33,109 nt of DNA. It comes from Archaeoglobus sp. (GTDB lineage: Archaea > Halobacteriota > Archaeoglobi > Archaeoglobales > Archaeoglobaceae). Shown one piece after another: positions 5,119 to 33,007 of the stretch. The translations under genes were made by a program, and so were the position numbers. The DNA lies in contig NZ_JACDNT010000020.1 in the NCBI RefSeq assembly GCF_017656475.1, positions 1-33,109 of the forward strand, written 5' to 3'. The notes under the pieces were generated by a model. The model searched no databases and was not told the DNA's origin. It worked only from the letters and a program-made list of their open reading frames with translations. Position 1 is the first letter of the stretch; each line of letters begins with the position of its first letter.

Positions 5119-5176
5119 GCATTTTGGTTGGTATAACTCTTGCAGTATCGGAATGTATTTATACGTATAAGTTCGT

Positions 5177-9322: not shown

Positions 9323-9378
9323 GGGCTCTAAGCTGGCTGAGTAAAAAACTTTTTGAACATTCATTCTGAATTGCTTCC
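9323..9378. promoter_or_regulatory. Bidirectional promoter region, RND / mutase
   Basis: These 56 bp separate two divergent ATGs. The central AT tract GTAAAAAACTTTTT (9341-9354) lies about 20-30 bp from both starts and could serve as the TATA element in each direction. No SD is seen before either gene, which suggests leaderless transcripts. Confidence 0.4.
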
Positions 9379-10719: not shown

Positions 10720-11310
10720 CAAGCTCTGGAACTTTCTCGCCATCTTTATACCCTTTATTTTTAGCTTGCCTGTAATTATCAGTTTGAGCGTCTTCAGCAA
10801 CCCAGCCTTTCCTGTTGCGAGGGAGTTTATCGTCTCGAAGTCGGACGAGATGAGTGAATACTTACCTTTCGCCGGCATTCCGTTGTAAACCGTTATCCTG
10901 CCACTGTTAAACTCAACGGTCGCGGCTGCATTCATGTCGGTAACCTCAACAACCAGATTTCCCTTAAGGTCCCTAACAATATTGCCCTTTGACGGACTCT
11001 TGGTGATGGCCTGGTCAATGAGCTGGCCGAGAATCATCGCGAAACCCTGGTTCTCATACGTTACCTCTACTGGTTGAAGCGAAGCTTCGTACTTTTCGAG
11101 GAAAGCGTTACTGCCAACCTTGAAAACTGCAGCCAACAGGCCGAAGAACATTACGAAGAGCCCCACAAAGCCTGCAAGGAATGCAAGAATTCTGATTCCG
11201 GTAAAGAAGAGGAACATCCCCCCTACAACCAGCAGGGCACCAACCACGAACCAAACCAATCCAAACAGGAAGGCCTTGATCGCAAGCTTGAAGGCTGAAC
11301 CCCATTTCAT
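10711..11310 (-). CDS. Membrane protein with SCP2-like C-terminal domain
   Basis: 199 aa. The N-terminus has two hydrophobic helices (about 8-32 and 38-62). The C-terminal 100 residues are soluble and resemble a sterol-carrier-protein-2-like fold: a strand EFNSGRITVYNG, then a segment ending GLLKTLKLIITGKLKIKG, the glycine/lysine pattern seen near the end of SCP2 domains. This suggests lipid or hydrophobic ligand binding at the membrane, but it is an inference from short motifs. The TATA-like CTTTAAAAAATC at 11330-11341 lies upstream of ATG 11310 at near-leaderless spacing. It converges on the mutase gene. Confidence 0.7.
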   Translation of the reverse strand: MKWGSAFKLAIKAFLFGLVWFVVGALLVVGGMFLFFTGIRILAFLAGFVGLFVMFFGLLAAVFKVGSNAFLEKYEASLQPVEVTYENQGFAMILGQLIDQAITKSPSKGNIVRDLKGNLVVEVTDMNAAATVEFNSGRITVYNGMPAKGKYSLISSDFETINSLATGKAGLLKTLKLIITGKLKIKGIKMARKFQSLLA

Positions 11311-11400
11311 GTACAGATTGATGATGATGATTTTTTAAAGTTTTCTATGTCATTTCCAGCCAACCTAAAAGAATTTTATCCTGGAGAATGAGAACGCAGT

Positions 11401-12042
11401 ATGATTACCATAGAGGTTACAGAGAAGGTATTACTTGGTGTAAATGTCGTAAGAGGTGTGAGCGTTTCTGGGAATGGTTCTGATCTGTTGGCCGAGGTTG
11501 CCGGTAATCTGAGAGAAAAATATGAGTTGGATGATTTGAAGGTGCACCCTGTGGTGAGGGCTTACAGGGACTTTTACTGGAAAATAGGAATAGATCCGAC
11601 GAAGCAAAGGCCCAGCGGGGAGGCTTTGGTGAGGAGGGCTCTGAGGGGCAAAGTTCCGTCAATAAATAACGTTGTCGACGCAGGAAACGCGGCAAGCATG
11701 GAAACCTTTGTCCCAATTGGTCTGTATGATCTGGACAGAGTGAAAGGGAAGCTGAGGTTAAGGTATGCCAGAGAGGGCGAGCAATTCGTGCCTATTGGGG
11801 GAAAGGAGGAGAGGCTGAGAGGTAATCAGATAGTTCTTGCAGATGATGAAAAAGTTCTGCACGTCTTTCCACACAGAGACTCAAAGCTGACGATGATAAC
11901 CGAGGAAACGAAGAATGTACTGGTAGTGGCATGCGGTGTAGCTGGTGTGGATGCTGAAACCGTAATGAAAGCGTGCTCGAAAGCTTCGGAGTACATAGTA
12001 AAGCTAGCTGGAGGGAATGCGGAAAAGTGCGTGCTGGTGTAG
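11401..12042 (+). CDS. B3/B4 domain protein (PheT editing-domain-like)
   Basis: 213 aa matching the stand-alone B3/B4 domain family (COG3382), which is related to the editing domain of the phenylalanyl-tRNA synthetase beta chain. Recognisable parts are HPVVRAYRDFYWKIGIDP, the segment RPSGEALVRR, and NNVVDAGNAASMETFVPIG. Members are thought to act on tRNA or aminoacyl groups, but the reaction is unproven. The ATG lies about 25 bp downstream of AATTTTATCC (11370-11379) with no SD, so it is probably leaderless. Its stop codon lies within the RNA-like hairpin at 12035-12096. Confidence 0.85.
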   Translation: MITIEVTEKVLLGVNVVRGVSVSGNGSDLLAEVAGNLREKYELDDLKVHPVVRAYRDFYWKIGIDPTKQRPSGEALVRRALRGKVPSINNVVDAGNAASMETFVPIGLYDLDRVKGKLRLRYAREGEQFVPIGGKEERLRGNQIVLADDEKVLHVFPHRDSKLTMITEETKNVLVVACGVAGVDAETVMKACSKASEYIVKLAGGNAEKCVLV

Positions 12043-12096
12043 CTCCGCCAACCGACCCGGGATCATGCTTCTCACCCGGGCGTGAGGGGCGGAGCC
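12035..12096 (-). ncRNA. Candidate H/ACA-type guide RNA (or strong GC-rich hairpin)
   Basis: Read on the minus strand: an 8-bp lower stem GCTCCGCC/GGCGGAGC (12088-12095 with 12042-12049), an internal loop of 7 nt (CCTCACG) and 6 nt (TCGGTT), a 6-bp upper stem CCCGGG/CCCGGG (12075-12080 with 12056-12061), and a 13-nt apical loop starting TGA and ending TGAT, like a kink-loop. ACA follows the lower stem after one base (12038-12040). Fifteen nucleotides separate the upper stem from ACA, matching the 14-16 nt rule for archaeal H/ACA RNAs. The pocket would select a target of the form AACCGA-U-N-CGUGAGG. It might instead be a bidirectional terminator between two convergent genes. Confidence 0.5.
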
Positions 12097-12120
12097 ATTA
12101 CATCTTCTTTTCCAGCATAG

Positions 12121-12579
12121 TTAAGCTTTGCGGTATTGGAGAGCAAGAAGAGTTATCTCAACGGCTTTGCTCACAATCTCCATGCACTTCTTCCTCTGCT
12201 CTTCTGAAATTAAGTCAAGATTGGGGTTTAGGTCACCGCAGTTCGGACTTCCGTTTGCTTCGACAAATTTTTTGAAAACTTCAGCGCATTTGGCGTAGAT
12301 GGGCATGTACCTTTCAAGCGGGTTCTCAATCTCGCTCCTGTCTCCAAGCCTTTCCATCGTGTAAAGGCTCGTGATTGCGATCGAGCCCCATAAAGCTCCG
12401 CAGATGTGTCCTGAGCCAGAAATTCCACCTGCAAATCCTATAGCCATATTTTTCGACTTCTCATCAAGCTCAATGCCAAGAGCTTCTGCAAGTGCGACAA
12501 AGGATGAGTACGCGCAGTTCCTCGTCTCGTTGAGAAGCTGTACCGCTCTCGCTTTTGCACTCTCAACATTAATTTCCAT
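12121..12579 (-). CDS. C_GCAxxG_C_C family putative redox protein
   Basis: 152 aa. It shows the pattern of the C_GCAxxG_C_C family: Cys22 in RNCAYS, the glycine-rich centre GGISGSGHICGALWGS with Cys60, Cys114 in SPNCGDL and Cys132 in KKCMEI, plus an extra Cys98. Family members are predicted redox-active or metal-binding proteins of anaerobes; no reaction is established. ATG 12579 has no SD; the TATA-like CTTTATTA lies at about 12603-12610. It is a single gene facing the B3/B4 gene across the hairpin. Confidence 0.8.
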   Translation of the reverse strand: MEINVESAKARAVQLLNETRNCAYSSFVALAEALGIELDEKSKNMAIGFAGGISGSGHICGALWGSIAITSLYTMERLGDRSEIENPLERYMPIYAKCAEVFKKFVEANGSPNCGDLNPNLDLISEEQRKKCMEIVSKAVEITLLALQYRKA

Positions 12580-12722
12580 GATGTTTCGTGGTGTATTCCG
12601 TAATAAAGCTTTTGGATTCTCGGTTTACTTAGAAGCATTTCAACTCCTACCAAATGGAAAATATGTGTAAAATTCTACATCGATTCGAAAGGTTTATAGC
12701 ATATCCAGCAGGTTAATCAAAC

Positions 12723-14621
12723 ATGAAACTTTTCGAACCCATTGAGTTCGGAGGAATGAAAGTCAAGAACCGCATAGTGATGCCCGCTGCCGAACTAAAC
12801 TACCACACTCCAGACGGAAGACCGACAGAAAGGCTGTTGAGGTTCTATGAAGAAAGGGCAAAGGGAGGAATAGGCTTTGCAGTTGTTGGAGTTGCCAAGA
12901 TTGAGCCCCACTTCTTTGGCGGGATAGCTGCTCACTCAGACGAGTACATTCCCGATCTCAAAAAAATAGCTGATGTATTCCACAAGTACGATGTGAAGTG
13001 CGCTTTGCAGCTTTGGCATCCCGGCAGATATGAAGTCTCATTCGACCCCTCACGCACTCCTGTAGCACCCTCACCCATTCCCCCACCAATATTCTCCAAA
13101 CGCACACCTAAGGAGCTGACAAAGGAGGAAATCCTTCAGATAGAGGAGGAGTTTGCCGATGCTGCTGTAAGGGCCAAGAAGGCTGGCTTCAATGCTGTGG
13201 AGCTTATAGGCTCTGCTGGCTACCTCATATCGCAGTTCTTCAGTCCTGCCACGAATAAGAGAACGGACGAGTATGGAGGTAGCCTGGAGAACAGGACAAG
13301 GTTTGCCGTTGAGATTATTCAGAAAATCAAGGAGAAGTGCGGAGAAAGCTACCCAATCATGATAAGAATTCCCGGAGACGAGTTCGTAGAGGGAGGGAAC
13401 ACTGTAAAGGAGATGAAGCAGATAGCCAAGATTCTAGAGGATGCTGGAGTGGTGGCGATAAACGTCATGGCAGGGTGGCATGAGTCGAGAAAGCCTTTGA
13501 CAACGATGCTCGTTCCGAGAGGAGGGTTTGCTTATCTTGCTGCCGAGATAAAGAGTGCCGTAAGCGTCCCGGTCATAGCCTCGCACCGCATTAACGATCC
13601 GCTTGTTGCCGAGAAGATTCTGCAGGAAGGCAAGGCCGACATGGTTGCCATGCTGAGAGCTTTGATCGCTGATCCTGAGCTTCCAAAGAAGGCTAAAGAG
13701 GGCAGATTTGATGAAATAAGATACTGCGTCGCCTGCAACCAGGGTTGTATGGACATGGTTATGCAGGCTCAGCCTGTAACGTGTCTGGTTAATCCTACTG
13801 TTGGGAGAGAGGCTGAATTCGATAACCTGAAGACTGACACTCCGAAGAAGGTAGTGATAGTCGGAGGAGGGCCAGGAGGAAGCATAGCGGCAGAGCTTCT
13901 GGCGAGAAAGGGGCATAAAGTTGTGCTGTTCGAGAAGACCGACAGGCTTGGAGGACAGCTCAACTTGGCTGCGAAATCACCCCTTGCCTATGAGTTTGCT
14001 GAAGTCGGCAAGTACTTCATGAACGTACTGCCGAAGCTCGGTGTTGACATCAGGTATAACACTAAAGCTGATGCGGCAAAAGTTCTGGCAGAGGAGCCTG
14101 ATGTTGCTATCATAGCAGTAGGAGCCTCTCCACTGATACCGAACATTCCCGGTGTTGAGAATGCCGTGACGGCCTTTGACGTTCTCGCAGGCAAGGCTGA
14201 AGTTGGAGACAGAGTGGTCGTGATTGGTGGCGGAGGAGTTGGCTGTGATGTTGCAGCAGAGCTTGCAAATGAGGGCAAGAAGGTCACAATCGTCGAGATG
14301 CTCCCCAAGATAGGGCAGGACATAGGAATCTCCACAAGGTGGACTGTTCTGTTATACCTAAGGGAAAAGGGCGTGGAGATGCTCACAAACACGAAGGCTG
14401 TTGAGATAAAGAAGAACGCAGTTATAGTGGAGCAGAATGGTGAGAGGAAGGAGCTTGGCTGCGACACTGCTATTATTGCGGTGGGAACAAAGCCGAACAA
14501 TGGACTTTATGATGAACTTAATGGTAAGGTGAAAGAACTTTACAAGATAGGAGACTGTGTGAAGCCGAGAAAGGCTCTGGATGCAACAAGGGAGGCTGCG
14601 GAATTGGCTTTGAAGGTTTAA
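12723..14621 (+). CDS. Old yellow enzyme / 2,4-dienoyl-CoA reductase-like Fe-S flavoprotein (NADH oxidase family)
   Basis: 632 aa with three parts. Residues 1-330 are an FMN TIM barrel; a [4Fe-4S] site follows at Cys335, 338, 342 and 354; from about 378 come FAD- and NAD(P)H-binding domains (VVIVGGGPGGS and VVVIGGGGVGCD). Tyr167 (AGYLISQF) and His253 (GWHESR) align with catalytic Tyr166 and His252 of E. coli 2,4-dienoyl-CoA reductase. Members move hydride from NAD(P)H through FAD, Fe-S and FMN to an enoyl or dienoyl substrate. Archaeoglobus homologues were named NADH oxidase (nox), but the active-site match points to a reductase of unsaturated CoA esters or similar compounds. The TATA-like GTTTATAGC near 12693-12701 suggests a leaderless start at 12723. 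Confidence 0.9.
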   Translation: MKLFEPIEFGGMKVKNRIVMPAAELNYHTPDGRPTERLLRFYEERAKGGIGFAVVGVAKIEPHFFGGIAAHSDEYIPDLKKIADVFHKYDVKCALQLWHPGRYEVSFDPSRTPVAPSPIPPPIFSKRTPKELTKEEILQIEEEFADAAVRAKKAGFNAVELIGSAGYLISQFFSPATNKRTDEYGGSLENRTRFAVEIIQKIKEKCGESYPIMIRIPGDEFVEGGNTVKEMKQIAKILEDAGVVAINVMAGWHESRKPLTTMLVPRGGFAYLAAEIKSAVSVPVIASHRINDPLVAEKILQEGKADMVAMLRALIADPELPKKAKEGRFDEIRYCVACNQGCMDMVMQAQPVTCLVNPTVGREAEFDNLKTDTPKKVVIVGGGPGGSIAAELLARKGHKVVLFEKTDRLGGQLNLAAKSPLAYEFAEVGKYFMNVLPKLGVDIRYNTKADAAKVLAEEPDVAIIAVGASPLIPNIPGVENAVTAFDVLAGKAEVGDRVVVIGGGGVGCDVAAELANEGKKVTIVEMLPKIGQDIGISTRWTVLLYLREKGVEMLTNTKAVEIKKNAVIVEQNGERKELGCDTAIIAVGTKPNNGLYDELNGKVKELYKIGDCVKPRKALDATREAAELALKV

Positions 14622-14643
14622 TTTTTCTAGTTTGTTATTTTTT
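14621..14643 (+). terminator. T-rich terminator after the flavoprotein gene
   Basis: The stretch from the TAA onward is T-rich (ATTTTTCTAG TTTGTT then ATTTTTT). Its first 16 bases occur again exactly at 22155-22170, also downstream of plus-strand coding remains. T-runs end transcription in archaea, so this is a plausible terminator; it lies in the gap before, and inside the end of, the convergent PAS gene. Confidence 0.35.
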
Positions 14644-15585
14644 GCTATCAACTTCTAGACTACCAACTCTTGGAAACTCTTTATCTAAGGCCACCTCGCT
14701 TACCCCAAGTCTCTCTAAAAAGGTGAAAGCTTCGATGAGTTTATCCGCAAGCTTATCAACTTTTTCCCACTCCTCATCAAGAGTTCTCACGATCTCCTCA
14801 ATCGCATTAATCTGCTCATGAACTTTCTCATACACCTCTCCTCCCACCTTTACCTCTACCAGACCGTTTATCGCTGCGAGCGGATTTCTTATCCTGTCAA
14901 CAAGAAGTGCTAAGTTCTCAGAAGCCGCCTTTAATGCTATAAGTGAATTTCTTACAACTTTCCTTGACTCCAGCATGAGCATGTTTTTCGCCACACACTC
15001 CCCTATAATGTTGAAAATTTCCAGATCTTCATCACAGATCTCAAACCAGTCGGGCAGGGAGAGAGTGAGACTTCCCATAACTCTATCCTGAACTTTTACT
15101 GGTATTGTGATCTCACCAGCTCTAATCGTTAGTTTCTGAACTTCTTCCGAAAATTTTGCGTCGACGAAATATTTCCGGAGAATGTTTTCAAGTTCATCAG
15201 CCTCTCCCGGAACATTCTTCAAAAGGTCTACAGTGGCTCTCAGCAGAGTTTCAAAGGATGCTAACCTTGAAATATCCCTGCTTACAACAACAACATACTC
15301 TCCAACTTTTCTGGCAGTTGCTTCCACCCAAAATCTTCTGCCGTCCCTTCTCCTCCCAAGCACCCTAAATCTAAGTTCAGCACCATCTTTCAAGGATTTC
15401 AGAGTCTCGATAATTCTTTCCCTATATTTTTCATCAACCAGCTCGTAGATCTTTCTGCCGATAACTTCCGAAACCTCATATCCGAGCGCTTTCACTGATG
15501 GTGTTGCAAAAACTATTTCACCATCGCTGCGAAGCACGTAAACACGATCCCTGATATTTTCTAGGACCAGTTTTTGGTAGTCCAT
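14635..15585 (-). CDS. PAS sensor protein with degenerate kinase dimerisation domain, no ATPase domain
   Basis: 316 aa. Residues 1-112 form a PAS domain; about 113-205 look like a small GAF-like or linker region ending GSLTLSLPDW; about 215-290 form a long helical pair with LLVDRIRNPLAAINGL. That motif resembles the histidine-kinase H-box (HELRTPL), but aligning IRNPL with LRTPL puts Asp230 at the phosphohistidine position and Arg231 next to it. No HATPase domain follows. It therefore cannot autophosphorylate by the usual route and may be a sensory partner that dimerises with another kinase. A TATA-like TTTAAATATAAA lies at about 15600-15612, the leaderless distance from ATG 15585, so it has its own promoter. 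Confidence 0.82.
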   Translation of the reverse strand: MDYQKLVLENIRDRVYVLRSDGEIVFATPSVKALGYEVSEVIGRKIYELVDEKYRERIIETLKSLKDGAELRFRVLGRRRDGRRFWVEATARKVGEYVVVVSRDISRLASFETLLRATVDLLKNVPGEADELENILRKYFVDAKFSEEVQKLTIRAGEITIPVKVQDRVMGSLTLSLPDWFEICDEDLEIFNIIGECVAKNMLMLESRKVVRNSLIALKAASENLALLVDRIRNPLAAINGLVEVKVGGEVYEKVHEQINAIEEIVRTLDEEWEKVDKLADKLIEAFTFLERLGVSEVALDKEFPRVGSLEVDSKK

Positions 15586-15617
15586 ATATTATCTTGGTCT
15601 TTATATTTAAAAACTTT

Positions 15618-16004
15618 TCAGGTCGTATCTTCGAGCAGTTTCAGAACTTTTTCGAGAACTTGATCTTCTCTTAGCCCTGGATGGTCGTAGGCAACGGAAA
15701 GGTCCTTAAAGTGTATCACCACAATGTTTGAGTTTTTCAGGAGCTTTTCAACTCCAACCTCAATCTCCTTCGTTAGTACAATATGTGGGATTCTGCAATC
15801 ATTCCTGAAGGCGAGGAGTGGAATTACGTGTTCGAACCCCAGTCTCTCCAGAACAGTTACTGCAATTCTTTTTCCTTTTGGCCCCAATATCATGGCATCG
15901 AAAGTATGCTCGATCCCGGACTCTCCCCTAATTTTCCCTCTTTCCATAACCTTGTATCCTTTCTTTTCAAGCCCCTCTATGATTTTTTTGACGATATCCA
16001 TCAT
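15618..16004 (-). CDS. Small protein with restriction-nuclease-like fold features
   Basis: 128 aa, soluble. The segment GESGIEHTFDAMI (28-39), followed by a strand KRIAVTV (45-51), recalls the G-x-E-H-x-F-D part of archaeal PD-(D/E)xK / Mrr-like domains. However, the final E-x-K is not visible (AVTVLE), so catalysis is doubtful. Its ATG overlaps the KaiC stop as ATGA (16001-16004), so the two are translated together. A DNA-binding or sensory role next to KaiC is possible. I do not recognise a named family with confidence. Confidence 0.72.
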   Translation of the reverse strand: MMDIVKKIIEGLEKKGYKVMERGKIRGESGIEHTFDAMILGPKGKRIAVTVLERLGFEHVIPLLAFRNDCRIPHIVLTKEIEVGVEKLLKNSNIVVIHFKDLSVAYDHPGLREDQVLEKVLKLLEDTT

Positions 16005-17332
16005 CTCACCACAGGTTTCCTGTCCAAGATAAACTCCTTCACTTGGTTCGATGCTCTGGACATTCTTGCTTTTCGAACTGCAATTTCCCTCTTAAGCACA
16101 CCATCTCTCTCCACAATCCTCAGTTCAATTACGTTATCAACGATTGTGCTTAAAAGTGTCTCTTTAACGGTCCCGCCAATCAAACTGATAACAACAGTTA
16201 TCCCGTTCTTTTTCATCTGAAACACCACGTCCTTAACCACTCTGTGGAAAGCATCTCCGAATTCTCTTCTGATTGCATTCAGCCCGTCAATGAAGAGCAT
16301 TGTGCGGTGGTCGAGAATCGTCTTTGAGATGATATCGTACAGCGCCCTTAGAGACAACATCCTCGGATTCAGGCTCAGAATCTCAAGTCCCTCTGTTTTT
16401 TCATACCCCAAGAACTTCAAAGTCTCTTCAATCTGCTGCTTTGGTTCTTCGAAGGAGATGTAAGTAACGTTCTCGCCGTTCATAGCACTGTTGGCTGCAA
16501 AGCTCAGCATGAGCACAGTTTTTCCTGCCCCAGAGGGTCCGATGAATGCGGTTGCCGTCCCCCTAATGATCCCTCCATCTACAAGTTCATCAAGGCCATC
16601 AATGCCAGTAGTTATTCTGTCCTTAAAGTCTACATTTGATTCAAGTTCCTCTACTCCGTGCATCAGCACTCTTATACCACCAGGAGGCCCCATTTCAAAG
16701 TTGTACACGGCCCTGTCCAGTGGCTTTCCTCTGAGCTTCAGTACATTCATCGTCCTGACCGGAGCTCCAGCCTCAGGAACTTCAAGCCTGAGAACTATAA
16801 CTCCGTCAACAACAAACTCCTCAATTCCCTGTCCGATCTTCGTCTCGCCTATGGGCATCTCTTCAGTCATTAACACAACCGACTTCAGTTCCCTGCCTAT
16901 GGTTTTGAGGGCATTGTGCAGAATTGCCCTCGACGTCTCAGGATTCACTGAGAGTACAGGAGTGATGGAGTCGATGACAATTCTCGCTGCCTTCATCTCG
17001 AGAGCATTTTTTGTCAGCTCTCTCGATAGTTGCATGAGGGCATCTTCGGAAGTGGGTGTCAGCATCTCCACGAATTTAAAGGAACCTTTCCTCTCCAACT
17101 CCTCGAAATCCATTCCGAGATTCTTCATGTACTCGTAAAACTCATCTTTGGATTCTCCAATGCTTATGTAAAGTCCATTCTCACCAAATCTTTTGGCTCC
17201 TTCATAAAGAAATTTAGCGCAAAACGTCGTTTTTCCGGAACCCGGATTACCCGCGATAAGTATTATCTGCCCCCTGTAAAATCCTCCAAAAATATCATCA
17301 AACCCTTCAATTCCGGTTTTTACCGCCTCCAT
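16001..17332 (-). CDS. KaiC-like dual RecA-domain ATPase
   Basis: 443 aa with two RecA/KaiC domains. Domain 1 (1-230): Walker A GNPGSGKTT (28-36) and Walker B RIVIDSIT. Domain 2 (235-443): Walker A GPSGAGKT (265-272) and Walker B MLFIDGLNAI. The catalytic Glu pair of KaiC is intact in domain 2 (YISFEEP, E295-E296), but domain 1 has SIGES with only one Glu. Outside cyanobacteria, KaiC-like ATPases are signalling hubs rather than clocks. The ATG at 17332 follows the SD AAGGTGAT and overlaps the upstream small gene by 26 bp; the next gene overlaps by 4 bp. Location between PAS proteins, a histidine kinase and a receiver suggests a shared signalling module. Confidence 0.9.
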   Translation of the reverse strand: MEAVKTGIEGFDDIFGGFYRGQIILIAGNPGSGKTTFCAKFLYEGAKRFGENGLYISIGESKDEFYEYMKNLGMDFEELERKGSFKFVEMLTPTSEDALMQLSRELTKNALEMKAARIVIDSITPVLSVNPETSRAILHNALKTIGRELKSVVLMTEEMPIGETKIGQGIEEFVVDGVIVLRLEVPEAGAPVRTMNVLKLRGKPLDRAVYNFEMGPPGGIRVLMHGVEELESNVDFKDRITTGIDGLDELVDGGIIRGTATAFIGPSGAGKTVLMLSFAANSAMNGENVTYISFEEPKQQIEETLKFLGYEKTEGLEILSLNPRMLSLRALYDIISKTILDHRTMLFIDGLNAIRREFGDAFHRVVKDVVFQMKKNGITVVISLIGGTVKETLLSTIVDNVIELRIVERDGVLKREIAVRKARMSRASNQVKEFILDRKPVVR

Positions 17333-17669
17333 TTTGAATCACCTTGCTGTATAACTCAGCCACCTCAATCAACTTTGTGTTATCACCGTTTTTAAAGTTT
17401 TTCAGGATTCCGTATGCTTGTATGTTATACTTCTTCAAATAATTGCTGAGAAGGAAATCGAGAACGTCAACTGCAATCTCAGAATCAAAAAACTTTACGA
17501 GAAACTCGTATGTGAGTTTTGGATTCTTAAGGCTTGCCTCGGCAAAGCTCATGCCGACTTGTTTCTTGCAGTGAAAGTCCACTATTTCGTACAAGCTGGG
17601 TGCTATACTGGAGAGGAAATCTGAAAACAAATTCCCCAACTGATCAATGCTTCTCATTATAATGGTCAT
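17307..17669 (-). CDS. Small helical protein upstream of KaiC, unknown function
   Basis: 120 aa, mostly predicted alpha-helical, no membrane span. The middle part contains SLYEIVDFHCKKQVGMSF and LVKFFDSEIAVDVLDFLL. I do not recognise a family. It is the first gene of a three-gene operon (this gene, KaiC, the 128-aa protein), with its 3' end overlapping the KaiC start by 26 bp. A clear TATA box TTTATATATATC lies at about 17699-17710. The start could be ATG 17669 or ATG 17657; neither has an SD. It may be a partner or adaptor of the KaiC protein, inferred only from the gene order. Confidence 0.7.
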   Translation of the reverse strand: MTIIMRSIDQLGNLFSDFLSSIAPSLYEIVDFHCKKQVGMSFAEASLKNPKLTYEFLVKFFDSEIAVDVLDFLLSNYLKKYNIQAYGILKNFKNGDNTKLIEVAELYSKVIQNGGGKNRN

Positions 17670-17698
17670 GTTGGGTCCCCATGTGTGTTACGGCTTCG

Positions 17699-17710
17699 TG
17701 ATATATATAA
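17699..17710 (-). promoter_or_regulatory. TATA box of the KaiC operon
   Basis: GATATATATAAA on the plus strand (TTTATATATATC on the minus strand) is the strongest TATA-like stretch in the 115-bp gap between the kinase gene and the 120-aa gene. It lies about 30-40 bp upstream of ATG 17669, predicting a short leader. Confidence 0.5.
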
Positions 17711-17784
17711 ATTTAGGAGATTTCCAATGTAGATTTTCAGTGTGGATTTTTAGTATCGTAGTGTTACACTTTAAACCGCTTGTA

Positions 17785-18765
17785 TTACAAACTCCAAGAC
17801 CTCAACCTGAGAACGAATACTGATCCATTGGGTTGATTGTTCTCAACCCAGATCTCACCCCCGTACCTCTCAACAAGCTTTTTAACCAAGTAAAGACCCT
17901 GACCTGTTGATGCGGCCTTTCCGTATGCAAAACCCTCATCGAAAATCTTATCCTTTATCTCTTCGGGAATGCCCCTTCCGTAATCAACAACTCTTATCTC
18001 ACAAAAGTCTCCCACTCTCTTCATCCTTACCTCAATTCTGTCTGTTCCTCCATGCTGTATTGCGTTCTGGAACAGGTTTTCAAAGATCGTCCTCAACCCT
18101 CTATCAGCAACAACCTCACAGTCACACTCAACGACTACAGGTATATCAAAGTTTTTTGCAACGTCCTCAACAACATCCCTAACATCGATTTTTTCGAGTT
18201 TACCTTCCACTACGGCTTCTTCAAAATCTCTCAGATTCTTTATAATTTTAACAGCCCTTTCTATCGACATTTCGAGTTTCTGCAGAATATTGTAATTCTC
18301 ACAATCTCCGCAAAGCTCTTTGCTAAACTCCAGATATGACTCCGCAGCCGTGAGGGCGTTCAAGACATCATGTCTGAGAGCCCGGGTAAGGATAAGCAGC
18401 ATCACCTTCTGCTCTTCGAACTTTGTCACGTCCGAGAGCGTAATAATCCCGAATTTTTCTCCCATGAACTGCCCTACACCTCCCACAACCTGGTAGATTC
18501 TGTATCTGCCATACTTATCTTTCACCCTCACCGAATAGGGCTCCACTCTTTCTCCTGCCAGTCTTCTCTTCATCGCATCTTTTGCCCGCTTTCCGTCTTC
18601 AGGATGGACAAAGTCGAGAATACTTTTCCCGACTATCTCTTCTGCAGAGATTTCTTCCGACAATTCCCGAAAAGCCCGGTTTACGTAGACTATTTCGCCT
18701 TTTCTGTCGTAAACTATAAAGGGTATCGGCAAAGCATTTCCGAGTTCTCTCAGCAGGTTCAGCAT
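17785..18765 (-). CDS. PAS-domain histidine kinase
   Basis: 326 aa, cytoplasmic. Residues 8-118 form a PAS domain, about 125-185 the dimerisation domain with phosphoacceptor His132 in ALRHDVLNAL, and about 195-325 the ATPase domain: N box NLFQNAIQHGG (Asn234), G1 DYGRGIP (261-267), G2 STGQGLYL (286-293). It is the only protein of this block with a complete kinase core. It starts 4 bp after the receiver stop, with the SD-like AAGTGAT in front, and is the last gene of a three-gene unit (large sensor, receiver, kinase). The likely phosphotransfer partner is the adjacent receiver. Confidence 0.92.
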   Translation of the reverse strand: MLNLLRELGNALPIPFIVYDRKGEIVYVNRAFRELSEEISAEEIVGKSILDFVHPEDGKRAKDAMKRRLAGERVEPYSVRVKDKYGRYRIYQVVGGVGQFMGEKFGIITLSDVTKFEEQKVMLLILTRALRHDVLNALTAAESYLEFSKELCGDCENYNILQKLEMSIERAVKIIKNLRDFEEAVVEGKLEKIDVRDVVEDVAKNFDIPVVVECDCEVVADRGLRTIFENLFQNAIQHGGTDRIEVRMKRVGDFCEIRVVDYGRGIPEEIKDKIFDEGFAYGKAASTGQGLYLVKKLVERYGGEIWVENNQPNGSVFVLRLRSWSL

Positions 18766-25891: not shown

Positions 25892-26149
25892 ATGAAAAGG
25901 TCCCGTATGGAGATAATTTTTGAAATCATGAAAAACGTTGATGCTGGTGTCAGCACAAAAACGAGGCTTATGTACGCCTCGAACCTCGACTGGAGGAGCT
26001 TTAGCAAGTATATCAGCTTTCTCGAAGAAGAGGGTTTTGTTGTTTGCACCAATGACAGCTATAGGTTGACGGATAAGGGAAAATTGCTCCTCCAGAAGAT
26101 GAAAGAGGTTGCAGAAATACTCAGTTCGCAGGTAGCTCCAAAAATTTGA
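25892..26149 (+). CDS. Winged-helix transcription regulator
   Basis: 85 aa. A single winged-helix domain covers most of the protein: helices IIFEIMKNV, TKTRLMYASNL and FSKYISFLEEEGFV, then a wing CTNDSYRLTDKGKLLL. This is the small archaeal one-domain type (ArnR/DUF4364-like pattern), which usually acts as a dimer on nearby promoters. The start ATG 25892 is preceded by GGGGGAG. It lies about 300 bp upstream of, and on the same strand as, the secreted-protein operon and could control it through the stem-loop at 26351-26386. Its last 29 bp overlap the convergent small ORF. Confidence 0.82.
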   Translation: MKRSRMEIIFEIMKNVDAGVSTKTRLMYASNLDWRSFSKYISFLEEEGFVVCTNDSYRLTDKGKLLLQKMKEVAEILSSQVAPKI

Positions 26150-26416: not shown

Positions 26417-26455
26417 TTTATATTAATACTGTGGAGTTAAGACTTATGAGGTGAT
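26417..26455 (+). promoter_or_regulatory. Promoter and SD of the secreted-protein operon
   Basis: TTTATATTAA (26417-26426) is a good TATA box. GAGGTGAT (26448-26455) is a strong SD 4 bp before ATG 26460. The implied leader is very short, with the SD close to the 5' end. Confidence 0.55.
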
Positions 26456-26459
26456 GTGA

Positions 26460-26945
26460 ATGAAGAAGTTCGGAGTTCTGTTCGTGGCCATGCTGGTGGC
26501 CCTCGGGCTGGTGGGTGCGACGTACGCCTACTGGGAGGATAGTCTGAGCATAACTGGGACGGTAGGCACTGGAACCTTAGAAGTGATATTCAACAGCACT
26601 GCAACATCAAGCGACAATGAGGAAACTTATGATGTTGGAAGTGTCCAGTGCGAGGTTGCTGATGACGGCAAAAGCGCGACAGTCACAATCACAAACGCCT
26701 ATCCGGGATATCAGGCAAACTGTACTTTCACAATTGAAAACACGGGAACAATCCCGGCTAAGATAAAGGCTATTAACAATGATGCAACTGACCCACTAAC
26801 TGTAGTGGTGGACGGGCTGAATGCTGGCGATGTGATAGAAACATCCAAAACGTTTAATGTCGTAACAACAGTCGGACAAAACGCCGCTGAGGACACACCA
26901 TATTCATACACGATAACCATCGACGTCGGCCAGTTCAACGAGTAA
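26460..26945 (+). CDS. TasA/SipW-substrate-type secreted fibre subunit candidate
   Basis: 161 aa. A signal peptide MKKFGVLFVAMLVALGLVGA runs directly into TYA-YWEDS, the TYAYFSDT-like junction of SipW-processed proteins (TasA, camelysin), with predicted cleavage after Ala23. The mature part is beta-rich, low in charge, and contains the GTGTLEVIF segment typical of TasA-like N-termini and a core NAYPGYQANCTFTIENTG. It has two cysteines (64 and 88) that could form a disulfide, and it ends IDVGQFNE. Being small, first in the operon and behind the best SD, it is the likely main subunit of an extracellular filament. Pyrobaculum bundling pili (AbpA) are made of TasA-like subunits. The filament role is inference. 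Confidence 0.78.
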   Translation: MKKFGVLFVAMLVALGLVGATYAYWEDSLSITGTVGTGTLEVIFNSTATSSDNEETYDVGSVQCEVADDGKSATVTITNAYPGYQANCTFTIENTGTIPAKIKAINNDATDPLTVVVDGLNAGDVIETSKTFNVVTTVGQNAAEDTPYSYTITIDVGQFNE

Positions 26946-26974
26946 CTTTTTCATTTTTTAAAAGGTGAACAGAA

Positions 26975-27640
26975 ATGTCAGCGAAGTATCTGCTGATTCC
27001 CGTAATGCTCCTCGCACTCAGCGTTACCTATGCTGGATTCAGTGATACGCTGTTCATCGGTGACTCTAACGCCCCGAACACTGTCACCACCACAGACATG
27101 GAATGGGTACTTAGTGGGGAACCTAATTGCTACGATAATATGACGACCAGCGACGTTTTCAATCCATTTAATCTGGCTGAAGACTCGTACGGTACTGTTT
27201 ACTGCACCAAAAGTGACGTAGCTGGTGGTAAAACAACGATCTCGGTTACCGTTGCTAACGCCTACCCCGGTTACGCCTTTGGAATTGACGTGCAGATAAA
27301 GAACACTGGCAACCTCCCCTCCAAGCTGAGGGATGTAGTGATAGACGCTCCTGAGGAACTTAGAAACAGTGCGAGGGTTGCGTACGAGCTGAAATACAGT
27401 CTTGATGGTAACAACAACGTAGTCACCAAGAGAAATAGTGGCTTGACCCTCGCTCAATTCGAAAACGAGATAGAAAGTGAACTGGACGGCAAAGTCTTCA
27501 CTCAAGGCGGTTACATATCTTTCGGCGACGAGGACAGCAACACAATCTGGATATACTTCCCACCAGACAGCAACCCACCGCAGGGTCGAACTTTGAACCT
27601 CAACATAACCTTCGTGTTCGGGCAGTTCAACGAACCTTAA
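26975..27640 (+). CDS. Second TasA-like secreted protein (paralogue)
   Basis: 221 aa. The signal peptide ends in LALSVTYA and is followed by GFSDTLF, again a SipW-type junction (cleavage after Ala20). It shares with the previous protein the core NAYPGY (95-100), a following strand IKNTGNLPSK, and the C-terminal GQFNE. It shares with the next protein VVIDAPEEL-like spacing and the peptide WIYFPPDSNPPQ. It is larger because of an insert near residues 110-190. SD AAGGTGA is at 26962-26968. The 29-bp gap after the first gene is T-rich (CTTTTTCATTTTTT) and may partly end transcription, giving less of this protein than of the first. It is probably a minor pilus subunit. Confidence 0.75.
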   Translation: MSAKYLLIPVMLLALSVTYAGFSDTLFIGDSNAPNTVTTTDMEWVLSGEPNCYDNMTTSDVFNPFNLAEDSYGTVYCTKSDVAGGKTTISVTVANAYPGYAFGIDVQIKNTGNLPSKLRDVVIDAPEELRNSARVAYELKYSLDGNNNVVTKRNSGLTLAQFENEIESELDGKVFTQGGYISFGDEDSNTIWIYFPPDSNPPQGRTLNLNITFVFGQFNEP

Positions 27641-27654
27641 TTTTCCAATTTTTT

Positions 27655-28416
27655 ATGAAACCCGCCTACCTTTTTATACTCCTCCTCTTCATTCCCACCA
27701 CCGCAGCACTTTTTCACGATCACCTCAAACTCGATACTGCCGTGACGGTCTCAACCTCCGACGTTGACTGGGAGGTTCTTCTACCATCCGAAACCCATCT
27801 ATGGAGACACCTACCCGACTATGGCGAGGCGAGGCTTGACGGTTGCTGGGTTGGTTGTATGGCAAAGTGCCTGTTTCTCCACACGAACTATTGCAATTGC
27901 GAAAAGCCTGACATAGCTAAAGCGAATCTCCTCAAGGTCGATGACGGTGTTATCTTCAGCATCGAAAACGCCTATCCATCATATGCGGCCGTTTCCCACT
28001 TCATATTCGTTAACAGGAAGCTACCTTCTGAACTCGATGATGTTGTCATCAACGCTGATGGGGATTTCAGAACAGTCTTCGTCGTTTTCTACGACACAAA
28101 CCCTCACGACTGCAGAATTGACGGCTTTGTCGCTGTTGGCTACAACTTAACGGAGACAGAAGAAATCCTTGAGAAAAACCTCAAAGGAAAGGTGTTCAGA
28201 AAGGGCGGGTGGATTGCCTTCTGCAAGCCTGATGGTGACTACGAGGCCAACCTCACAACCTATCTCAGCAACCGGAGCGGTCTGAATGAAGAGAGCTTGA
28301 AGGGTATGCTCGAAACCGACAGCTTCTGGATATACTTCCCTCCCGACAGCAACCCACCTCAGAGCAAGTCAGTAAGCTACGAGATAAGGTTCAGGTTCAA
28401 GGCCTTTAGACCCTGA
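27655..28416 (+). CDS. Third TasA-like secreted protein with a cysteine cluster
   Basis: 253 aa. A signal peptide of about 18 residues ends TTAA, then LFHDHLKLDT, an altered SipW-type junction. The same core appears as ENAYPSY (105-110) with NRKLPSEL, and WIYFPPDSNPPQ near the C-terminus is nearly identical to the second paralogue. Unlike it, residues 64-82 carry five cysteines (C64, C68, C72, C80, C82), and more occur at HDCRID and AFCKPD, so disulfides or metal binding are likely. The C-terminus (RFRFKAFRP) lacks GQFNE, which would fit a tip or cap rather than a repeating subunit. There is no SD; the ATG is 15 bp after the previous stop. Confidence 0.72.
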   Translation: MKPAYLFILLLFIPTTAALFHDHLKLDTAVTVSTSDVDWEVLLPSETHLWRHLPDYGEARLDGCWVGCMAKCLFLHTNYCNCEKPDIAKANLLKVDDGVIFSIENAYPSYAAVSHFIFVNRKLPSELDDVVINADGDFRTVFVVFYDTNPHDCRIDGFVAVGYNLTETEEILEKNLKGKVFRKGGWIAFCKPDGDYEANLTTYLSNRSGLNEESLKGMLETDSFWIYFPPDSNPPQSKSVSYEIRFRFKAFRP

Positions 28417-28428
28417 CGTAAGCAACCC

Positions 28429-28438
28429 ATATATATTC
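28429..28438 (+). promoter_or_regulatory. TATA box of the signal peptidase gene
   Basis: ATATATATTC lies about 24 bp upstream of ATG 28458, in the 41-bp gap after the third secreted protein. It predicts a separate leaderless transcript for the processing genes. Confidence 0.45.
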
Positions 28439-28457
28439 AAACCCGCACTTTTGAGCG

Positions 28458-29585
28458 ATGCTGCTCACACTCCTTGCTCTGCTGATTTACTCCGCAATTC
28501 CTTTCCTCCCTTCCCTGCTGTCCTTCTACGCCAAGATACCTGCCGGAATTTTTCTGGCCTTTTCAGCCTACTATGAGGCGAAATTCTCAAACATCCCGAT
28601 TTTCCGAAGGCCTGTAAGGCTCAAGAACTTCACATCACCCGTGAATCTTGCAATCTACGCCGCGATGCTCCAGATAGCCTTGCTGTTCACGCTCGGCGCT
28701 TTTATCGGCTTCGGGAAGAGCCCTTACTCATTCACCCCGCTCGGCATAACGACAAATTTCGCTTACGTTGCTTCAACGCTTTTCGGTGTGGAGCTGAGCA
28801 GAGCTCTTTTCGTAAGGATTTTTTCTCGCAAAATCGGCGAAAAGGCGGTTATAGCAGTTGCCACACTCTACTTCGTTCTTCTTTACCTAAATGACCTCAG
28901 GTTTTTCCCCACTGCACCTCTTGAAGTTCTCAAGTTTTTGGGCAACGATGTTATACCCCATTTCACCCAGCAGCTTTTCCTTACACTTCTGGCATACGTC
29001 TATGGTTTCAGGGCTTCGATAGCATTTATTTTCCCCATAACAGCCTTTGAGTGGTTCTGTCCAATACTGCCAAACCTAGACTGGACACTCAATGCAATGG
29101 TCAAAACAGCCGTTCCCGCTGTTGGCTACGCGATTCTCGAAAGGGAGCTAGAGCCGAAGAAGGTTGAACTAAAGAAGGAGAGCACATTATCATGGGTCGG
29201 ATTTCTGACCGCATGCATTTTGCTGCTGCTCTTCTTTTCCGGTTCCCTCGGCCTTCACCCATCCGTAGTCGGTTCCGGAAGCATGAGACCTGCGATAGAG
29301 GTCGGCGATGTCGTCATCGTCAAAAATGTTGGCCTTGATGAGATAGAGGTGGGAGATGTCATACAGTACTGGGAAGAGCACTACACCGTAACCCACAGGG
29401 TTGTGGAAATTCATTATGATGGAGAGCAAAAGATTTTCATAACAAAAGGTGATGCTAATGACGTGGCTGATGATCCGGTAAGCGGTGACAGGGTTATCGG
29501 GAAAGTTGTATTTGTGATTCCGAGAATAGGCCTCCTGTCCCTCATGCTCAGGGATTTGCTCAAGATGTGGGGTGTTCTGCCTTGA
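28458..29585 (+). CDS. Signal peptidase I (archaeal/SipW type) with N-terminal membrane extension
   Basis: 375 aa. Residues 1-225 hold about six to seven membrane helices, an extension not found in ordinary signal peptidases. A further helix at about 245-262 leads to the catalytic domain with Ser275 (GSGSMRP), His313 (VTHRVVE) and an acidic site near GDANDVADDP (Asp332-339). His in place of the bacterial Lys marks the ER/archaeal/SipW class. It cleaves signal peptides on the outer face of the membrane. Its position right after three SipW-type substrates makes it the probable dedicated processing enzyme, as SipW is for TasA in Bacillus. The next gene overlaps its stop. Confidence 0.88.
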   Translation: MLLTLLALLIYSAIPFLPSLLSFYAKIPAGIFLAFSAYYEAKFSNIPIFRRPVRLKNFTSPVNLAIYAAMLQIALLFTLGAFIGFGKSPYSFTPLGITTNFAYVASTLFGVELSRALFVRIFSRKIGEKAVIAVATLYFVLLYLNDLRFFPTAPLEVLKFLGNDVIPHFTQQLFLTLLAYVYGFRASIAFIFPITAFEWFCPILPNLDWTLNAMVKTAVPAVGYAILERELEPKKVELKKESTLSWVGFLTACILLLLFFSGSLGLHPSVVGSGSMRPAIEVGDVVIVKNVGLDEIEVGDVIQYWEEHYTVTHRVVEIHYDGEQKIFITKGDANDVADDPVSGDRVIGKVVFVIPRIGLLSLMLRDLLKMWGVLP

Positions 29586-30478
29586 AAATTACGAAGAGTA
29601 GTTTCAGAATTCTCGCTGGCACTTTGCTGGCAATCTCAATTCTCTGCATAGCAGGAGCGGTGCTGGTAAATCCTGAGAAGAAAGTTGAGGTTGTTAAGGA
29701 CACAGTGGTTTTTTCTGACAGCTTCTCCGTTAAGGCTAAATTGAAAGATAACACCCTTTTCGGCAAGGGTGAGATTCAGACTGATCGCATTTTTCTGAAC
29801 ATAACTGAGAGCTGTGAGGCATCTTACCAACTAAGCGTGGGCTGCAGTTCGTGTGATAAGAAAGGGAGTTATGAGGTTATAATCAGCCTGCAAACGAAAG
29901 ATTGGAGCAAGGTTGTTGAAAGTTTCTCTGGAAGCTTTGATGGCAGCTACACTCTCACTTTGCCCCTCGATCTCCACTACTACAACTCCCTCTATGAAAA
30001 AATTAGTAAGGAGCTCGACTACAAGGCATCGGAGCCAAAACTCGTTCTCACCATAAAAACCCATGCCGCCGGATATGACTACCAGAGAGAGGTTACAGCA
30101 TCACTAGGATCCAAAATATCGAACTTCGAGTACGAGCCATCAGCTACGAAGGAGTTTAAGGAAAATGAAGAATTCACCGTCGTTGATCCCTCGTTAAGGA
30201 TTTTGAAGTTCGTTCTTGTCCCGTTCTCCATAATTCCTGTCTTTGTGTTTGTATTGATGTTCAAAAAGTGGGAAATCGTTGAAGGAGACCCCTACGCCAA
30301 GTACTCCGATGTTGTTGTAAAAGCTCTGCATTTTGAAGACGGCAAAGTCGTGGTTGAAAGCGTTGAGGAGCTTCTGAAGCTTGCAGAATATCTCAACAAG
30401 CCGATTCTCAGGCGGGGTGACGAGTTTGCCGTATTCGACGAGGATGTTGTTTACGTGGTAAAAATAAAAAATGGATAG
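29582..30478 (+). CDS. DUF5305-type membrane-anchored protein
   Basis: 298 aa from TTG 29582, which overlaps the peptidase stop as TTGA and follows GGGGTG by about nine bases; a GTG at 29567 is the alternative. Topology: one N-terminal helix (about 10-30), an outside beta-rich domain (30-200) with a CSSC motif, a second helix (about 207-227), then a cytoplasmic tail of about 70 residues. This layout matches archaeal DUF5305 proteins, commonly found beside signal peptidases and SipW-type substrates. Function unknown; an assembly or anchoring factor for the secreted subunits is an inference. Its stop abuts the convergent peptidase-like gene with no gap. Confidence 0.78.
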   Translation: MKITKSSFRILAGTLLAISILCIAGAVLVNPEKKVEVVKDTVVFSDSFSVKAKLKDNTLFGKGEIQTDRIFLNITESCEASYQLSVGCSSCDKKGSYEVIISLQTKDWSKVVESFSGSFDGSYTLTLPLDLHYYNSLYEKISKELDYKASEPKLVLTIKTHAAGYDYQREVTASLGSKISNFEYEPSATKEFKENEEFTVVDPSLRILKFVLVPFSIIPVFVFVLMFKKWEIVEGDPYAKYSDVVVKALHFEDGKVVVESVEELLKLAEYLNKPILRRGDEFAVFDEDVVYVVKIKNG

Positions 30479-33007
30479 TCACCACCTCTTAATCCCCCAC
30501 TTCCAGTAAACGTACAGTTCGAGCACGTCTCTGGTGTTTATGACACCATCAGGCTTGAAGTCATAGTACTCCACATAATCCTGAAACTGCGGCTCATTGA
30601 AATGCCACTGGAAGCAGGCAATGTCATTAAAATCAAGTCTTCCATCTCCGTTGATGTCTTCGTAAAGCCCATCTCCATCCAAATCCTTGGATCCGGCTGG
30701 AAGTTCAGTCTCGTTCTTTGTAACCGTCACAACCTTCGAAATGCTACTGCTCAGCCCCGTTTCATCCGTTACGGTTAGAGTGACAGTATAGTTACCGGCC
30801 TCGAAGTTGTGTGTAGTATCGCAGCCGTTCCCCTGAGTTCCATCTCCGAATTCCCAGATGCAAGTCAACTGCTGCCCGTCAGCATCAGTGCTTGTGGAAA
30901 TAAAATGCACGCTCGAACCATTAACCTCAAATCTGAAGTCTGCAGCAGGTCTAAAGCTTGTTCTGAACCACCAAGTGTTGGAGTTGTAAACGGTTCCGTT
31001 GCAGTTTGCTTTTACCATCCACTCGTACTTTCTCCCCTCATCGAGACCGCTCCACTCCACACAAACATTCTTTCCCTCTCCGTAACCTATCAGGTTTCCT
31101 GAGGAGTAGAATTCAACGCTGCAACTCCTTGAAAGCGAAACACACAGCTCGACGTCAAGAGGCTGGCCGGTAGAGCCGTTTTGAGGGCTGATTGCAGTAA
31201 TGTTCATGCCCTCAACTTTAACTTCAATCTCACCCTGCACGCTATCGTTATTGGCTGAAACTGTGAAGATGATTCTGAAAATTCCCGACTCTGCAGGAAT
31301 CCACTTTATCGTCATGTTCTCACAAGAAACGCCGTCAGGAGCTGAAATTATGCTGCACTCGGCATCCAAGTTGGCGTTTATTTTGACTTCAAGAAGTTCA
31401 CCCACGTGTGCCGTGACATTGTGGGGGTAGCTTATTTCGAGCTCATCAATGGGAGAGGCGTAAAAGGCTAACCAGCTTTCAAGCTTACCATCGAAAACTC
31501 TCAGCAGGTACTTCCCCTCGTAGGGAGGGTCGAATGTATACTCACGCACATCTTTCGCCTTGTCAACTAACTCACCGAAAATGCTGTAGCCCTTGTCTGG
31601 AAGATATCTGTGTTCGAGGTAGAAAACTTTTGCAGAAACCGTCCTGTCAAAATTGAACGTTGTTTTCCCCTTGCAGACCGTATCAATGCAGTTGGGTGGG
31701 ATATCTATTTTTGGATGAGTTCTAGGCTGATTCCACTCAACGGCAGGGTACTGCAGTACGGGGTCGCCGATAAGCTCCGCCTCAAGGTAAATTCTCAGCA
31801 TCCACTCCTCCTTTTTGGTTGAGGGGTTCAGCCTAATTCCCTCATCCTCCAACACTTCTTCCAGTGCCGCTTTGAAGGCGTCTCCAATCCTGTTCCCGGG
31901 AAGATGCTGTATTGTCTTAATCAAAATGTTGTCAGCGTGCATCACTCCGGCAACTTCCACGTACCCGTTTTTCTCAGCAAACTGGTAGTCGCTACCAGCA
32001 GTGCCGGTAAAGCCGATAAATGCTACACCTCCTGCATCATTTGTCAACAAAAACTCACTCCACAATCCCGGAGCCCAGCTTGGAAGGTATATATCCCTTA
32101 TCTCATCATCAAAAGCCGCAGCGCTACATCCACTGCTGAGAACAACTGGTAGCAAGGGACGACTCTTGTCCAGCATGTTCATGTACCTCGTTGTATACAT
32201 TCCACCGTCATCAGAGTCTAGAGCATAGGGAACACCATGCCCGACGTGAAAAACCAACCCGTAACCCCCCGAAAATGCTTCATCCAGAGTTTGCTTTATA
32301 CTCGTCCACTCTTGATCGCTTCCCAGCGCTATCTCGCTATAAAAGCTCTCCGTAAAACCCAAGTCTTCTAGGAGTTTCACCGCAGTTTCACCCTGCCACA
32401 CTTCATAGTCGTCTATAGTTGCTTTGTCTGAGCTGAAGGGGGCGGCATAAATTCTCATGCCGACCAAAACAGCGTTTCTGTAATTTCCGCTGTTAAACTC
32501 CGAAATCCACTCCTTAACTTTGTTCAGGACTTTTTCAGCTTCATCTACGTTACTCACAGGTATCCTTCCCACCGCAAAATCTGGCTTGAGGTCGTAGTCT
32601 GGAGAGGCGTAGAAGAAGTCAGTTGGAAACAGCTCTCCATAAACAAGCTTTGCATAATAACTCGGAGGAACAACGTCTGCATCGCCAAAAATGGTTATGT
32701 GGCTGGCGTTAACGCTCCTCAGAAAAGAGATTACTTTTCTCGCGAGGGTGTAGTTGTATTTCTCGTAAACTTGCTCCGTGCTGTAACCTTCAACCGGAGG
32801 GTCTTCGGCAGCACTGTAATCTCTCCAAATTTGCTCCACCGTTACGATTTCTGATTTGACACCCAAATTTTCATGGATCTGCTTAAGCTCTTCTGCTTGG
32901 TTGATTAGCTTCTCGGAAGTTATTATTACCTCTTTTCCACAAGCCGTTCTAGGAAATAAAACAAGCAAAATGGCCAATAATACTATCACTGAGACTCTCA
33001 TAGTCAT
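30479..33007 (-). CDS. Secreted C25 (gingipain-like) peptidase with PKD and dockerin domains
   Basis: 842 aa. Signal peptide 1-24 (VIVLLAILLVLFP...ACG). Residues about 25-430 form a caspase-fold C25 domain with catalytic His257 (HVGHG) and Cys294 (SSGCSAA), also FGDADVVPP and DFAVGRIP. Beta-sandwich modules follow (about 450-670), then a PKD domain (about 675-760; WEFGDGT, GNYTVTLTVTD). The end (about 770-842) is dockerin-like: calcium loop DLDGDGLYEDINGDGRLD and a second, weaker loop DFKPDGVINTRDV. It would cleave proteins, or act on its own surface, outside the cell and attach to a cohesin. The start ATG 33007 has SD GGAG (33014-33017) and a TATA-like TTTAAATATTAG at 33022-33033. It is convergent with the secreted-fibre operon. 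Confidence 0.85.
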   Translation of the reverse strand: MTMRVSVIVLLAILLVLFPRTACGKEVIITSEKLINQAEELKQIHENLGVKSEIVTVEQIWRDYSAAEDPPVEGYSTEQVYEKYNYTLARKVISFLRSVNASHITIFGDADVVPPSYYAKLVYGELFPTDFFYASPDYDLKPDFAVGRIPVSNVDEAEKVLNKVKEWISEFNSGNYRNAVLVGMRIYAAPFSSDKATIDDYEVWQGETAVKLLEDLGFTESFYSEIALGSDQEWTSIKQTLDEAFSGGYGLVFHVGHGVPYALDSDDGGMYTTRYMNMLDKSRPLLPVVLSSGCSAAAFDDEIRDIYLPSWAPGLWSEFLLTNDAGGVAFIGFTGTAGSDYQFAEKNGYVEVAGVMHADNILIKTIQHLPGNRIGDAFKAALEEVLEDEGIRLNPSTKKEEWMLRIYLEAELIGDPVLQYPAVEWNQPRTHPKIDIPPNCIDTVCKGKTTFNFDRTVSAKVFYLEHRYLPDKGYSIFGELVDKAKDVREYTFDPPYEGKYLLRVFDGKLESWLAFYASPIDELEISYPHNVTAHVGELLEVKINANLDAECSIISAPDGVSCENMTIKWIPAESGIFRIIFTVSANNDSVQGEIEVKVEGMNITAISPQNGSTGQPLDVELCVSLSRSCSVEFYSSGNLIGYGEGKNVCVEWSGLDEGRKYEWMVKANCNGTVYNSNTWWFRTSFRPAADFRFEVNGSSVHFISTSTDADGQQLTCIWEFGDGTQGNGCDTTHNFEAGNYTVTLTVTDETGLSSSISKVVTVTKNETELPAGSKDLDGDGLYEDINGDGRLDFNDIACFQWHFNEPQFQDYVEYYDFKPDGVINTRDVLELYVYWKWGIKRW

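Follow-up and report, generated by a model that had tools for sequence, protein, structure and literature searches.

Do the five genes at positions 26,460 to 30,478 of the 33,109-nucleotide stretch of Archaeoglobus sp. DNA analysed here (contig NZ_JACDNT010000020.1, hereafter the window) encode a complete apparatus for an extracellular protein fibre, as was proposed in a first-pass annotation made from the sequence? In this work, the region was found very probably to be a self-contained cassette for an extracellular donor-strand fibre of the TasA/ABP type. Five open reading frames (gA, gB, gC, gP and gD) were found at these positions, all codirectional and closely packed, with intergenic gaps of 29 nucleotides between gA and gB, 14 between gB and gC and 41 between gC and gP, and with an overlap of 19 nucleotides between gP and gD. 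Their content, three secreted proteins followed by a signal peptidase and a DUF5305 protein, is the one that the annotation described. The unit that it regarded as complete in five genes begins earlier, however, with a gene for a winged-helix regulator of the HTH_45 family (25892-26149).

Homology among the three secreted proteins extends past a short core motif (pairwise sequence comparison, E=1.3e-8 for gA-gB and E=6.8e-18 for gB-gC), and their alignment shows a mature N-terminal strand, the core NAYP[GS]Y..N..[IL]P and a C-terminal strand as common elements. The shared core noticed at first, NAYP(G/S)Y with an N..[IL]P strand after it, was found in each of them; among 60,000 shuffled proteins the 6-mer came up in 2, and in no case did all three have it. 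A single-sequence phmmer search with gA retrieved archaeal bundling protein X (AbpX; 9sj2, E=3.7e-11; 9rhp, E=1.4e-6), to which gA is 42.5% identical over 80 residues (BLASTP). The subunit profiles were built without AbpX to avoid circularity, and the PDB match of a profile containing AbpX, being circular, was not used. The 31-subunit profile built in this way matched AbpX in the PDB at 2.8e-17 over most of its length, followed by two TasA sequences (5of1 and 8aur) at about 0.012, aligned on the core motif, and no chain named AbpA was among its matches. The profile of the gB/gC-type rows alone had AbpX as its sole PDB match (E=2.9e-6). Because no AbpA-named chain was found among the profile matches, the subunit family is nearer to AbpX than to AbpA. 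Of the earlier label TasA/AbpA-like, the resemblance to TasA is supported by the profile and, topologically at best, by the gB model, while AbpA gives way to AbpX as the nearest solved relative. These results support placing gA, gB and gC in the AbpX/TasA fibre family, to which they are new.

The predicted structure of gB (predicted local distance difference test, pLDDT, 85; predicted template modelling score, pTM, 0.81) had the TasA fibre 8aur as its best PDB match in a fold search and as the sole one below 1e-3 (E=3.6e-4, probability 0.85), but with a TM-score of 0.26, i.e. a weak superposition. Residues 24-38 of gA, YWEDSLSITGTVGTG, align with the AbpX segment WSETLSLSATISTG, which is N-terminal in the fibre chain 9sj2 and C-terminal in chain 9rhp. 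TasA, ABP and ABPx are described as donor-strand exchanged fibres, AbpX being reported as an ABP-like fibre of Pyrodictium abyssi (PMC11952670).

SipW-type signal-peptide junctions had been read in all three subunits as TYA-YWEDS, TYA-GFSDT and AAL-FHD. The protein gA scores over the cut-off of TIGR04088 (SipW-type signal peptide), and the junctions of gB and gC are of this type by alignment only. The second mature residue (P2') is Trp or Phe in all 31 aligned subunits; 30 of these sequences extend into the signal peptide, and 29 of the 30 have Ala at P1. The cut AAL-FH in gC is better read as TTAA-LF because every aligned relative has an aromatic P2'. In TasA, it is the aromatic P2' that renders the site a poor LepB substrate in the case of the E. 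coli enzyme (PMC10269814); a dedicated peptidase would be in keeping with this.

The peptidase gP is, as anticipated, a Ser/His signal peptidase with a multi-helix N-terminus. It matches the archaeal signal peptidase I model TIGR02228 with 97.7 bits (cut-off 51.9), the SipW model being second, and stays at 62 bits against a cut-off of 190 for the Bacillus SipW equivalog NF046067. All 12 aligned cassette peptidases match S26, with S275, H313, D332 and D338 invariant. In the AbpX-type cassettes (13/13), the catalytic Ser lies at residues 274-301 and is preceded by 4-8 predicted hydrophobic or transmembrane (TM) segments; in other cassette types with the Ser located, it lies at 34-48, after 1-2 segments. 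In these sequences, the multi-helix N-terminus marks AbpX-type cassettes and sets gP apart from other S26 peptidases. When the first 243 residues of gP were compared with 295 genomes, clear matches were obtained only in G000, G135, G140 and G275, which are also the four genomes with strong gA/gB-type matches; one further marginal match (8.2e-4) has several internal stops. No Pfam match to this domain was found in 12 homologues beyond scattered weak ones. A CPBP/CAAX identity was considered for it and dropped, because the invariant E-x-x-R is at odds with the motif of that family. In the unrooted peptidase tree, the Archaeoglobaceae form one group (100/99), the bathyarchaeon and Bacillota stand beside it (99/99), and the Desulfurococcales lie outside; a transfer of the peptidase between domains is possible on this tree.

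The assignment of gD to DUF5305 was borne out at about the cut-off of PF17231 (29 bits), with 29.6 bits in a six-frame search and 28.4, just under it, as a single protein, and 12/12 cassette homologues match DUF5305. Its model (pLDDT 80) consists of a TM segment, a beta-sandwich ectodomain (pLDDT about 84-96), a second TM segment and a small alpha/beta cytoplasmic domain. The fold search retrieved nothing more specific than Ig-like folds of a generic kind (Asf1, UNC119, YEATS, GH2), and therefore no function is claimed from the fold; no paper on the DUF5305 family was found in the literature searched. Elsewhere in the phylum, the DUF5305 gene has an S26 gene no more than 6 kb away in 20/20 sampled loci, against 0/20 control stretches of the same genomes. 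By this linkage and by its topology, gD is most likely an anchor or assembly platform. In the haloarchaeal and related DUF5305 loci (L146-L165), S26 is present within 6 kb in each, the secreted partners are unrecognised by the subunit profile except in L163, and a search for the SipW-type signal pattern in the haloarchaeal loci found almost nothing.

Cassette loci in other genomes were found by the core-motif profile and by genomic place; a contig search with gA alone gave no match. L088 (uncultured Bacilli), a weak relative on a contig without cassette partners, was left out. The order of small subunit, larger paralogue(s), peptidase of about 400 residues and DUF5305 protein recurs in other Archaeoglobaceae and also in Desulfurococcales, one bathyarchaeon and Bacillota, among them Ammonifex thiophilus; the bathyarchaeon has two extra subunits between S26 and DUF5305. 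The HTH_45 assignment was confirmed in 10/10 upstream genes tested of archaeal cassettes, and the Bacillota loci have other upstream genes. Wherever a contig with AbpX-type subunits was long enough and the cassette could be recognised, both membrane partners, gP and gD, are kept. In L089 (G140:C16:6000-25000, 5122-11535), two converging subunit sets were observed, each with its own HTH_45 gene; with respect to one of the sets, the genes for the peptidase and DUF5305 run divergently. The two sets appear to share this one peptidase and one DUF5305 gene, as in a duplication of the subunit module.

We hypothesize that gA, gB and gC are exported through Sec and that gP would cut one residue before the aromatic P2' residue, freeing the N-terminal strand, which each subunit would donate to the next as the fibre grows. 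In this scheme, gA would be the major subunit and gB and gC minor ones (cap, nucleator or adhesin), the membrane-proximal Ig-like domain of gD would hold the base of the growing fibre or present subunits, and the HTH_45 protein would regulate the gene set. The fibre would probably be used for cell-cell or surface attachment. The homology to AbpX, the profile link to TasA, the gB model and the conserved peptidase/DUF5305 order all speak for the TasA-type fibre that had been suggested. Several points weigh against it. TasA alone is matched only weakly by the profile (E=0.012), and gB and gC carry a long insertion that AbpX does not have. The structural match of gB to TasA is topological at best because the superposition is poor, and the fold of gD is generic. 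Exchange of strands between the subunits is expected here from homology to AbpX, and the likeness of 9rhp, with its strand at the C-terminus, to a donor-strand-complemented construct is read from the chain sequence. Filament formation in Archaeoglobus, the place of gA as major subunit and the role of DUF5305 are what we infer.

Secreted proteins of TasA fold that do not polymerise, e.g. S-layer-associated or enzyme-like exoproteins, could also account for the subunits, which we regard as quite improbable. It is true that gA exceeds the curated cut-off of Pfam Peptidase_M73 (TasA/camelysin), so that its nearest family is called a camelysin metallo-endopeptidase, and that TasA occurs as a self-complemented monomer before assembly (PMC9674648). 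However, the Peptidase_M73 match spans only residues 2-47 of gA, i.e. the signal peptide and the N-terminal strand, and AbpX, its closest relative of solved structure, is a subunit of a fibre. The metallo-endopeptidase reading of gA was rejected, since gA contains no histidine and hence no HExxH site. The chances are about even, on the other hand, that the fibre is made of gA only, with gB and gC as separate adhesins or as TapA-like chaperone or nucleator proteins at one end. TapA is a chaperone of TasA filament formation (PMC10151520), gB and gC form a clade of Archaeoglobaceae of their own (100/99), the small subunits of other Archaeoglobaceae form a group with gA (97/99), and terminator-like elements follow the first gene. 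Yet gB and gC retain the signal junction and the core motif and could also enter the fibre, so a gA-only fibre would refine the TasA/ABP-type reading and is not its opposite.

On the proportion of the subunits, two features speak for gA as the major one: its ribosome-binding site is the strongest (its Shine-Dalgarno sequence is the best of the gene set), and a terminator-like element comes directly after the gene. In 4/5 Archaeoglobaceae sets, 6-8 consecutive T are found after the first subunit gene, and all four Bacillota loci have a strong hairpin after the first subunit of the conserved pair (z -3.0 to -5.7), the other gaps there having z of about -1 or higher. The archaeal T-tracts are suggestive only, because a T run occurs within 40 nucleotides of the stop in 26/123 short codirectional gaps, many of them in cassettes. 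As for DUF5305, we consider it rather unlikely that the protein is a sensor outside assembly which passes secretion stress or the state of the fibre to the cytoplasm via its C-terminal domain. Its arrangement of an ectodomain and a cytoplasmic domain, each after a TM segment, would suit such a sensor, and the cassettes have a regulator of their own, but a domain-model search of the cytoplasmic part revealed no signalling domain of a known kind, and the DUF5305 profile search of the PDB gave no match.

Compared with known systems, the AbpX fibres of Pyrodictium abyssi (9sj2, 9rhp) are like gA in subunit homology, N-terminal strand and core motif, whereas the gB/gC paralogues with insertions belong to the Archaeoglobus cassette; this comparison concerns the subunits. 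The TasA-TapA-SipW system of Bacillus subtilis shares the TasA resemblance by profile and, with a poor superposition, by predicted structure, as well as a dedicated S26 peptidase, the aromatic P2' and several subunits per operon. It differs in gene order, and in Archaeoglobus the peptidase is far below the SipW cut-off and has an extra multi-helix domain, with DUF5305 and HTH_45 added. The AbpA bundling pili of Pyrobaculum calidifontis are alike as an archaeal TasA-like donor-strand fibre, according to the part of PMC9674648 citing Wang et al. 2022. The thread filament of Sulfolobus acidocaldarius (Saci_0406) is donor-strand complemented, with Sec export and cleavage by signal peptidase I (PMC9715654). 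Its gene cluster has no definite chaperone-type factor (PMC9715654), whereas the Archaeoglobus cassette has two conserved membrane partners; Saci_0406 was not recovered by any homology search made with the cassette proteins.

The same genome has two further cassettes of this plan with other subunits, on C16 and C3. The second cassette (L033, G000:C16:12000-28000, 5490-12060) encodes HTH_45, four TasA/camelysin-type proteins, S26, a small SipW-type protein, another S26 and DUF5305, with a subtilase-PKD protein after it, and is also present in a genome of the same genus (L034). The third (L051, G000:C3:26000-42000, 3336-8302) encodes HTH_45, DUF1102 proteins (two over the cut-off and a third similar one), an S26 with a C-terminal extension, a secreted beta protein and a DUF5305-like protein, whose match is below the Pfam cut-off. 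The third cassette suggests a further kind of surface structure, with the DUF1102 proteins as its subunits.

In the surroundings of the AbpX-type cassette, strong orthologues of the neighbouring C25 protease adjoin the DUF5305 gene in G126, G135 and G140. At the same site in the same-genus genome G004 (L140, G004:C1:36000-55990, about 2400-18240), the place of the cassette is taken by a stretch of about 16 kb that includes glycosyltransferase, ABC exporter and AglB/STT3-type genes, one surface-structure locus standing where another would be. This site is bounded by a mannose-6-phosphate isomerase-like gene (86% identity) and a truncated C25 protease (77%, matching residues 21-411 only). In the near relative G001, the left flank and the HTH_45 gene (87%) are followed by the contig end.

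Table. Features of the fibre cassette and its neighbours; positions are those of the window, except in the last row, where they are those of the loci named.
Feature	Position	Strand	Basis
Winged-helix regulator, HTH_45 / Sso10a-like, 85 residues	25892..26149	+	PF14947, E=7e-26; outside the span of the first-pass annotation
Putative TATA-like element TTTATATTAAT upstream of gA	26417..26427	+	sequence reading
Strong Shine-Dalgarno GAGGTGAT of gA	26448..26455	+	sequence reading
gA, small TasA/AbpX-type fibre subunit, probable major subunit, 161 residues	26460..26945	+	AbpX match; Peptidase_M73 and TIGR04088 over cut-off
gA residues 24-38 YWEDSLSITGTVGTG, predicted donor strand at mature N-terminus	26529..26573	+	aligns to AbpX WSETLSLSATISTG
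gA core motif NAYPGY...FTIENTGTIP	26694..26756	+	aligned with same AbpX stretch; family profile aligns motif with TasA
T-tract CTTTTTCATTTTTT directly 3' of gA, possible partial terminator	26946..26959	+	T runs at this position in relatives
gB, larger TasA/AbpX-type paralogue, 221 residues	26975..27640	+	homologous to gA and gC; best PDB match of model TasA fibre 8aur
gB core motif NAYPGY...IKNTGNLP	27257..27319	+	alignment
gC, second of the larger paralogues, sharing a clade with gB, 253 residues	27655..28416	+	homology to gB; tree
gC core motif NAYPSY...FVNRKLP	27967..28026	+	alignment
gP, S26 Ser/His signal peptidase with multi-helix N-terminal domain, 375 residues	28458..29585	+	TIGR02228; S275/H313 invariant
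gP N-terminal multi-TM domain, invariant N100, E112, R115, P167, G183, P202, P205	28458..29186	+	alignment; predicted TM segments
gD, DUF5305 protein: TM, Ig-like beta-sandwich ectodomain, TM, small cytoplasmic domain, 303 residues	29567..30478	+	PF17231; model
C25 (gingipain-like) protease with PKD and dockerin domains, convergent neighbour, possible accessory	30479..33007	-	PF01364, E=5.6e-52; Dockerin_1 over cut-off
Bacillota hairpins after first subunit gene	L076 8520-8599; L077 8619-8704; L086 8520-8624; L087 1002-1063

TasA and ABP fibres serve as scaffolds in the biofilms of bacteria and archaea, and their assembly without a chaperone-usher system is unexplained. No Archaeoglobus donor-strand or bundling fibre was found in the literature searched, and a cassette with multi-helix peptidase, DUF5305 and HTH_45 was not found described there, the primary AbpA and Pyrodictium structure papers being outside that literature. 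The cassette points to the assembly machinery, with the multi-helix signal peptidase and DUF5305 as its two partners. We tentatively propose, at somewhat less than an even chance, that these two are the dedicated assembly machine of AbpX-type fibres in archaea and Bacillota, in which gP would couple signal-peptide release to strand hand-over and the Ig-like domain of gD would hold the fibre base, and that one archaeal genome has three such machines, of the AbpX, TasA/camelysin and DUF1102 types. The cassette ties archaeal to bacterial fibre systems and makes the question of assembly open to gene deletion. Moreover, it suggests that HTH_45/S26/DUF5305 cassettes could serve to find unknown archaeal surface fibres, for example those of the DUF1102 proteins.

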